Shown piece by piece: positions 9,834 to 41,670 of a DNA stretch of 64,000 bases. How positions within the stretch are numbered: position 1 is the first letter of the stretch; each line of letters begins with the position of its first letter. Position numbers and translations under genes: made by a program. The DNA comes from an uncultured Flavobacteriales bacterium (GTDB lineage Bacteria > Bacteroidota > Bacteroidia > Flavobacteriales_D > Crocinitomicaceae): the NCBI GenBank assembly GCA_903945495.1, contig CAJAVU010000104.1:1-64000 (forward strand). The letters run 5' to 3'. A model generated the notes under the pieces. That model was given only the letters and a program-made list of their open reading frames with translations. It ran no database searches and was not told the origin of the DNA.

Positions 9834-9875
9834 TTCTCGAATCTCGTTTCTCGTTTCTCGTTTCTCGAATCTCCT
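9834..9875. repeat. period-7 tandem tract abutting a promoter
   Basis: Six consecutive 7-base units have consensus tTCTCGt (two identical units in the middle, the outer ones degenerate). The last unit ends immediately before the -7 box at 9876. Confidence 0.85.
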
Positions 9876-28243: not shown

Positions 28244-28765
28244 ATGGAATTCGATAATCAGATTGACAATATTCAAGGAAAGAGAAGTGAACGTCCAGGT
28301 TTCTTGAAGACCTTGTGTATCATGAGTTTTATTTCAACTGGTTTGGCATTGGTTTCAGGATTTATCAACTTATTGTCAGGTCCTTTCACTAAGGAAGAAA
28401 TGATTGAACAAAAGGTTCAAATGATGAAGTCAATCGATGAGTTGAGAACACTAGAAATGGGTAGTTTGGCTGAAATGTTTGAGAAAATTCAACACATGTC
28501 AGAATCAATGAATGGACATTTTTATGCAGCTCAAATTGTCTCTTTGTTAGTTGTTTCAATCGGTATTTTTGGTGTTTGGAAAATGTGGAATGGTGTAAAA
28601 CTCGGATTCCATTTGTACATCATTTATTCATTATTATCTGTATTAACAGTTTATTTCTTTGTTGCACCAGTGGACGTACCTTCATTTGTGGTGATTGTAA
28701 ACCTTATATTTTCTGGAATCTTCGTCTTCATGTATTCGCGCAACCTTAAATGGATGACTTTATAA
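28244..28765 (+). CDS. small multi-pass membrane protein of unknown function
   Basis: This 173-residue protein has a polar N-terminus, then about four membrane segments (~23-45, 97-112, 120-140, 145-163). A Met/Glu-rich amphipathic loop at ~50-90 lies between the first and second. I recognise no family. It starts 3 bases after hutH and so is likely cotranscribed. Its stop is followed 2 bases later by a long period-7 tract. Confidence 0.75.
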   Translation: MEFDNQIDNIQGKRSERPGFLKTLCIMSFISTGLALVSGFINLLSGPFTKEEMIEQKVQMMKSIDELRTLEMGSLAEMFEKIQHMSESMNGHFYAAQIVSLLVVSIGIFGVWKMWNGVKLGFHLYIIYSLLSVLTVYFFVAPVDVPSFVVIVNLIFSGIFVFMYSRNLKWMTL

Positions 28766-28767
28766 AG

Positions 28768-28851
28768 AATTCGTAATTCATGATTCCTCATTCATAATTC
28801 AGGACCATAATCCCGAATCCCGAATCACAAATTTCGAATGCCAAATTCTTT
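28768..28851. repeat. long period-7 tandem tract abutting a promoter
   Basis: Twelve consecutive 7-base units lie without a phase break. The early units resemble aATTCaT and the later ones ATCCCGA (two identical copies at 28810-28823). The tract fills almost the entire gap from the stop codon at 28765 to 4 bases before the -7 box at 28856. Confidence 0.85.
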
Positions 28852-28855
28852 TGTG

Positions 28856-28863
28856 TATCTTTG
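28856..28863 (+). promoter_or_regulatory. -7 box of the ABC-F gene
   Basis: TATCTTTG followed by C is an exact match, 20 bases before the ATG at 28884. The region where a -33 element belongs is period-7 tract. Confidence 0.65.
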
Positions 28864-28880
28864 CGCCAAATTTCGAGTGA

Positions 28881-30506
<1,626 letters not shown>

Positions 30507-32348: not shown

Positions 32349-32376
32349 AATTCGTGATTCATGATTCATGATTTAA
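32349..32376. repeat. short period-7 tract after a stop codon
   Basis: Four 7-base units: aattcgt, two identical gattcat, gatttaa. It begins 5 bases after the M61 stop and belongs to the same sequence family as the start of the 28768 tract. Confidence 0.75.
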
Positions 32377-41508: not shown

Positions 41509-41540
41509 AATGCGAATGTAGGAAAAGAGTTTTGTTTTTA

Positions 41541-41576
41541 GACTTTAGGATATTAAGACTTTAAGATATTAAGACG
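41541..41576. repeat. period-8 tract A between divergent genes
   Basis: Four 8-base units alternate gactttag/gactttaa with gatattaa (the latter twice, identical), plus a partial fifth unit. Confidence 0.8.
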
Positions 41577-41598
41577 TGTTTATTTTTCGTGAAATCAG

Positions 41599-41670
41599 TT
41601 TGTAGTCTTTTCGTCCTGTAGTCTTGATGTCTTGAAGTCCTGCAGTCTTGTAGTCCCGAAGTCAGAAGAG
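41599..41670. repeat. period-8 tract B abutting the meaB promoter
   Basis: Nine consecutive 8-base units have consensus CTTGtAGT, with no phase break. Units end in AGT or close variants. The tract ends 4 bases before the -7 box at 41675. Confidence 0.85.

Follow-up and report, generated by a model that had tools for sequence, protein, structure and literature searches.

The window analysed here, a stretch of 64 kb, belongs to the genome of a Fluviicola-like water bacterium of the Crocinitomicaceae (3.64 Mb in 114 contigs), a placement that rests on named relatives of its ABC-F protein. The tract under study lies between two genes of the same strand, and the features in and around it are as follows.

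28244..28765, + strand: upstream gene, predicted protein of 173 aa with no Pfam match, whose stop codon abuts the tract
28768..28802, + strand: left arm of the tract, ATTCNNN units (ATTCGTA, ATTCATG, ATTCCTC, ATTCATA, ATTC), from lag-7 and chain scans
28803..28809, no strand: junction GACCATA between the arms, with the 7-base register maintained (sequence, unit print)
28810..28847, - strand: right arm, read on the - strand as ATTTGGC, ATTCGAA, ATTTGTG, ATTCGGG, ATTCGGG, ATT
28856..28863, + strand: TATCTTTG, -7 box of Bacteroidota type belonging to the ABC-F gene; most congeners conserve it in the orthologous position, whether or not a tract is there
28884..30506, + strand: downstream gene, ABC-F type ATP-binding protein with two ABC_tran stretches and ABC_tran_Xtn (Pfam)
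32349..32375, + strand: second array of the GATTCGT-type heptamer family, in sense, 5-6 bases past the stop codon of the next gene

An earlier note on this DNA had described here an 84-base tract of strict period 7, running as twelve units without phase loss from a stop codon to a -7 box, and both the sequence and a lag-7 scan bore this out. The twelve units occupy 28768-28851 in strict register, beginning two bases past the TAA (28763-28765) of the upstream gene and ending four bases ahead of TATCTTTG. Identity was 61.5% at lag 7, 55% at lag 14 and 47% at lag 21, and at most 32% at the other lags below 13. The tract was the top 77-base lag-7 window within the 64 kb. Its lag-7 segment score was 27.2, whereas 20 Mb simulated with an order-3 Markov model of the intergenic DNA of the same genome peaked at 20.8. 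The note was also right in that the period is fixed and the unit varies, unlike in a clean microsatellite, and in that the sequence holds no TTG in the -33 region of the ABC-F promoter.

The two arms are one heptamer on opposite strands, facing inward across the short junction; in the right arm, the chain scan recovered RAAT steps at 28815-28846. The unit had previously been described as drifting along the tract, from ATTCAT-like forms to ATCCCGA. Such variation exists but the description was incomplete, since ATCCCGA corresponds on the other strand to the ATTCGGG steps, in the same register, and the change is thus mainly a switch of strand to the inverted second arm. The unit variation left after the strand switch comes mostly from GATTCGT with G:C replaced by A:T.

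The inverted pair was seen at the focal site and in the nearest relative (G105), and a strict pattern recovered 20 head-to-head and 16 tail-to-tail loci across the genus. A hairpin as the defining design of the tract was rejected. These two counts are close to each other, an unbiased test for flanking inverted arms gave 12/68 for the reverse complement and 13/68 for the reversed control, the RNA fold of 28760-28890 was moderately stable (z -2.1) and the DNA fold was no better than that of shuffles (z -1.1). We found no short palindrome with a compact stem (REP/BIME type) within 28768-28851, no G run longer than 2 in the focal tract and no terminator-like site there, and an Rfam search gave no match near threshold.

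Distribution, units and placement of the arrays

The focal tract belongs to a dispersed family of intergenic heptamer arrays. In the 1.24 Mb that were sampled of the 3.64 Mb genome, we recovered 39 intergenic tracts at lag 7 (26 from 854 kb, 13 from another 381 kb), compared with about 0.3 expected by the null rate in 101 kb of intergenic DNA. Lag 8 gave 10 and 9 intergenic tracts in the two samples, and each of the other lags from 4 to 13 gave 0-5 and 0-2; 200 kb of Escherichia coli DNA, used as a control, gave zero. The period scan, which covered samples from this genome and six relatives, thus confirmed that period 7 dominates the intergenic tracts here. The pattern ATTCNNNATTCNNNATTC had 43 matches genome-wide and its reversed control 0. 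The array total for the genome is estimated at roughly 100, and only a minority of genes carry one. Period-7 tracts were also present in the six sampled relatives, with partly different heptamers, and a family-wide pattern search gave at least one match in 89 of 100 genomes. Contig edges fall inside heptamer arrays, both in G105 (27 or more units) and in the focal genome (C100; L150:13982-14021). Assemblies therefore break inside such arrays, and their number is probably underestimated.

The units of 33 arrays (120 units) of the focal genome conformed to R-ATT-Y-R-T (RATTYRT), a form of GATTCGT in which nearly every change is a G:C to A:T transition; the commonest were GATTTGT (23), GATTCGT (22), GATTCAT (14), AATTCGT (12) and AATTCAT (10). 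Because the search pattern itself contained ATT and the base on either side of it, the fair evidence on the unit comes from positions 6 and 7, occupied by G or A in 109/120 units and by T in 99/120, respectively. GGG was absent from this table of 120 units. Neighbouring units were slightly more similar to each other than shuffled ones (0.817 vs 0.788), and similarity showed no steady fall with the distance between units.

Arrays usually begin at the edge of an ORF and read outward from it. With ORFs called by a simple longest-ORF rule and arrays read in the GATTCGT or GAACCGA direction, the 5' ORF was the nearer one in 26/28 arrays (mean distances of 24 vs 115 nt) and in 13/17 held-out arrays (21 vs 115 nt), or 39/45 combined; the held-out set was not fully blind, a few of its loci having been met earlier as pattern matches. 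The rule was weaker in the sampled relatives (13/19). Arrays beside stop codons were sense rather than antisense by 18 to 2 and 10 to 2, 28 to 4 in total. This bias holds for arrays lying after the stop codon (13 to 0 and 7 to 1, 20 to 1 in total), so the stop codons of the arrays themselves are not its source, and the GAACCGA arrays, whose unit is free of stop codons in both directions, obeyed the strand rule in 12/12 cases. Convergent gene pairs had the highest array density (6.1 in every 10 kb of intergenic DNA), followed by co-directional (4.3) and divergent pairs (1.7); the corresponding values in the relatives were 7.1, 5.3 and 2.8.

Two candidate signals behind this placement were rejected. 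Arrays lay within 3 nt of a stop codon in 16/22 cases, compared with 6.8 expected under uniform placement, which could have indicated special targeting of stop codons; the signal became much weaker once the 50 nt before starts were excluded (24 vs 17.9 expected, P 0.0015 overall and not significant in the held-out set alone), and the lack of room between stop codon and promoter thus explains most of it. A universal GANY core as an orientation signal fared well in the focal genome (15 to 2, then 9 to 1); the relatives, with 12 to 6, did not fit it, and units of the GAATCAC type have GANY on both strands. There was no excess at start codons, with 2/18 arrays within 3 nt of a start where 3.6 were expected.

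The orthologous site and the ABC-F promoter

Orthologs of the upstream gene were recovered in 23/26 genomes of the genus. Most congeners have 47-96 nt ahead of the ABC-F gene and no tract, and TATCTTTG is kept in most of them. Both arms are present at this site in G105, the nearest relative, whose ABC-F gene is 90% identical over 700 nt; they have about 4 and about 16 units there, compared with about 5 and about 6 in the focal genome, and the flank is almost identical up to the start codon. Two other genomes carry different heptamers, namely arms of the TAGTTGC and GCAACTA types in G037, and GAATTAT and AATCTGT units in G098, with three REP-like palindromes inside the arrays. The orthologous site thus gains, loses, lengthens and swaps heptamers, and the promoter box stays.

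The earlier note had also raised the option that the tract sets helical spacing or plays a promoter role. As a promoter element, it would set the spacing or bind a modular activator, replacing the missing -33 TTG of the ABC-F gene, and its right arm does cover the -33 region and ends 9 bases ahead of the box. The comparison with congeners does not support the proposal: most of them retain TATCTTTG without a tract, and the few genomes that have one differ in heptamer sequence and in length. Since the heptamers at the site change and TATCTTTG stays, a promoter role is unsupported. Moreover, array density peaks between convergent genes, where promoters are not needed, and arrays show no excess near start codons. 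The suggested comparison with TAnnTTTG boxes did reveal a mild enrichment of arrays within 15 nt upstream of them (2 vs 0.6 expected in the focal genome, 7 vs 2.0 in the relatives). The note had counted such an enrichment as support for a promoter role, but arrays that occupy the short interval from a stop codon to the following promoter would produce it just as well. We thus consider a promoter role very unlikely, and this case warns that such tracts should not be taken for promoter parts.

Known heptamer systems and interpretation

The closest comparison is with the GGGAATC arrays of two Xanthomonas and the GGGGA(C/T)T arrays of Nostoc, which are mostly intergenic, lie 28 nt from the 5' ORF and 160 nt from the downstream ORF, and are found on the coding strand just past stop codons, overlaps included, or immediately ahead of starts on the non-coding strand (Rehm et al., 2015; PMC4692102). 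In 70-75 cases they make up convergent inverted pairs, and few of them sit between divergent ORFs; they differ in length between relatives, are mostly transcribed and fold into quadruplexes in vitro, and no function was found for them (PMC4692102). The arrays described here share with them the period of 7, the dispersed intergenic distribution, the variable number of units, the depletion of divergent gaps (1.7 vs 4.3 and 6.1), the shorter distance to the 5' ORF (24 and 21 vs 115 nt here) and the strand rule (26/28, 13/17 held-out and 28 to 4 beside stops, although 13/19 in the relatives is weaker). A convergent inverted pair was seen here at the focal site and in G105, and the genus gave 20 head-to-head and 16 tail-to-tail loci. 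Xanthomonas GGGAATC and GTGATTC of the present arrays agree at 5/7 positions. In contrast, the units here are A+T-rich, more degenerate and without G runs, such that they cannot form quadruplexes, and presence at the orthologous site is poorly conserved. Because of the lack of G runs, we file the tract in the general class of bacterial heptamer arrays and not in the quadruplex-forming family.

Two other systems are similar in part. The heptanucleotide repeats of Calothrix are cyanobacterial STRR (cited in PMC4692102) and resemble the present arrays in being tandem heptanucleotides with several unit types per genome; the likeness drawn here concerns these traits, and the host phylum differs. 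The direct repeats TAACTGA are known from Beggiatoaceae, Cyanobacteria and five Bacteroidetes, and are intergenic, mostly just upstream of starts (MacGregor, 2015; PMC4679880). They are likewise intergenic heptamer arrays with Bacteroidetes among their hosts, but they have one fixed unit, where we found several degenerate ones (RATTYRT), and the present arrays show no excess at start codons (2/18 within 3 nt, 3.6 expected). As in STRR or heptameric SSR, the 7-nt units occur here above chance, at many dispersed intergenic loci and in a number that varies, as seen in G105.

The focal tract is probably a pair of inward-facing heptamer arrays of the STRR / heptameric SSR class, grown by slippage, that forms a passive spacer of variable length upstream of the ABC-F promoter. 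Array copies would grow and shrink in steps of seven through strand slippage, they may persist in the short stretch of dispensable DNA that separates a stop codon from the following promoter, and ordinary G:C to A:T mutation would erode their units; as a passive spacer, the focal array would have no function. A scar of slippage was among the options of the earlier note, and it is the one that we favour: the slightly higher similarity of neighbouring units (0.817 vs 0.788) fits slippage, which predicts it. The absence of a steady fall of similarity with unit distance and the weak orientation rule in the relatives (13/19) speak against the slippage spacer. Neutral slippage from random seeds does not predict an orientation relative to ORFs (28 to 4 beside stops), nor that a few heptamers are common to many loci; the strand rule and the recurrence of these heptamers are thus left unexplained by this reading.

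Alternatively, the arrays could be RNA or DNA elements of gene ends, working in transcripts that leave the ORF (sense 3' UTR or antisense leader) through termination, stability or protein binding. The sense bias beside stops (28 to 4, and 20 to 1 when the stop precedes the array), the GAACCGA arrays (12/12) and the matching rule in Xanthomonas and Nostoc, whose arrays are mostly transcribed (PMC4692102), are consistent with such a role. We nevertheless regard it as unlikely, given that the presence of arrays is unconserved at orthologous sites, that only a minority of genes have them, and that the focal tract shows neither a terminator-like site nor an Rfam match and folds as RNA with moderate stability only (z -2.1). 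A Rho utilisation site was judged unlikely as well, GATTCGT not being C-rich relative to G.

The arrays could also be part of a REP-type mobile composite, travelling with palindromes mobilised by the Y1 transposase of the genome, in which case bare arrays such as the focal one would be remnants. Of the roughly ten copies of the palindrome CCTGCCTGTCGTAGCCTCCAGCGCAGACAGG, seven are no more than 150 nt away from a lag-7 tract, compared with 120/1389 random intergenic places (8.6%; P = 4e-6), and the neighbouring heptamer varies from copy to copy; the heptamers that follow TAGTTTGGTTTAAAT also change between its copies. The genome has a single RAYT-type Y1 transposase gene (C48:11658-12002), flanked on both sides by the REP AACCCCTTCAGGGTT, and in G098 the arrays of the orthologous site contain REP palindromes. 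Like the arrays, REP/BIME elements and RAYT transposases are dispersed and intergenic, and they abut some arrays of this genome. However, the focal tract is a tandem array without CCTGCCTGTCGTAGCCTCCAGCGCAGACAGG, TAGTTTGGTTTAAAT, AACCCCTTCAGGGTT or a Y1 transposase gene, most arrays also lack a REP, about ten palindromes face an estimated 100 or so arrays, and REPs may merely land in the same dispensable DNA. Such a composite therefore seems to us quite unlikely as the origin of the tract.

For the arrays of Xanthomonas and Nostoc, quadruplexes were the suspected cause of the rules, and the authors also considered polymerase slippage with a preference for 7 nt (PMC4692102). Quadruplexes cannot underlie the placement and strand rules here, since the units cannot fold into them. 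Rules known from G-rich units are now found with A+T-rich units in a Bacteroidota genome, and these units, together with the stop-free GAACCGA, separate the strand rule from both quadruplexes and the supply of stop codons. We tentatively suggest, with rather low confidence, that a polar and sequence-tolerant process independent of G-quadruplexes builds or retains outward-reading 7-base arrays at ORF edges in distant phyla. Candidates would be an extension from the DNA end on the ORF side, or selection on transcripts that leave the ORF either way. The reasons for the preference of bacterial arrays for period 7 and for their orientation can now be tested in a new group.

Other repeats

A 31-base palindrome and TAGTTTGGTTTAAAT adjoin heptamer arrays in this genome, with units that change between copies. 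Period 8, the second commonest intergenic period here, is represented in the window by degenerate AGTCYTGA-type arrays that occupy a divergent intergenic region (41535-41663); period-8 arrays show no abutment to stop codons. A degenerate 11-base intergenic array of the ATAGATAAAGC type (C21:369196-369280) has a rarer period and a similar look. Finally, an array of a second heptamer family, TTCTCGT, lies in the window at the start of a called ORF (9834-9873), which makes that ORF start doubtful.
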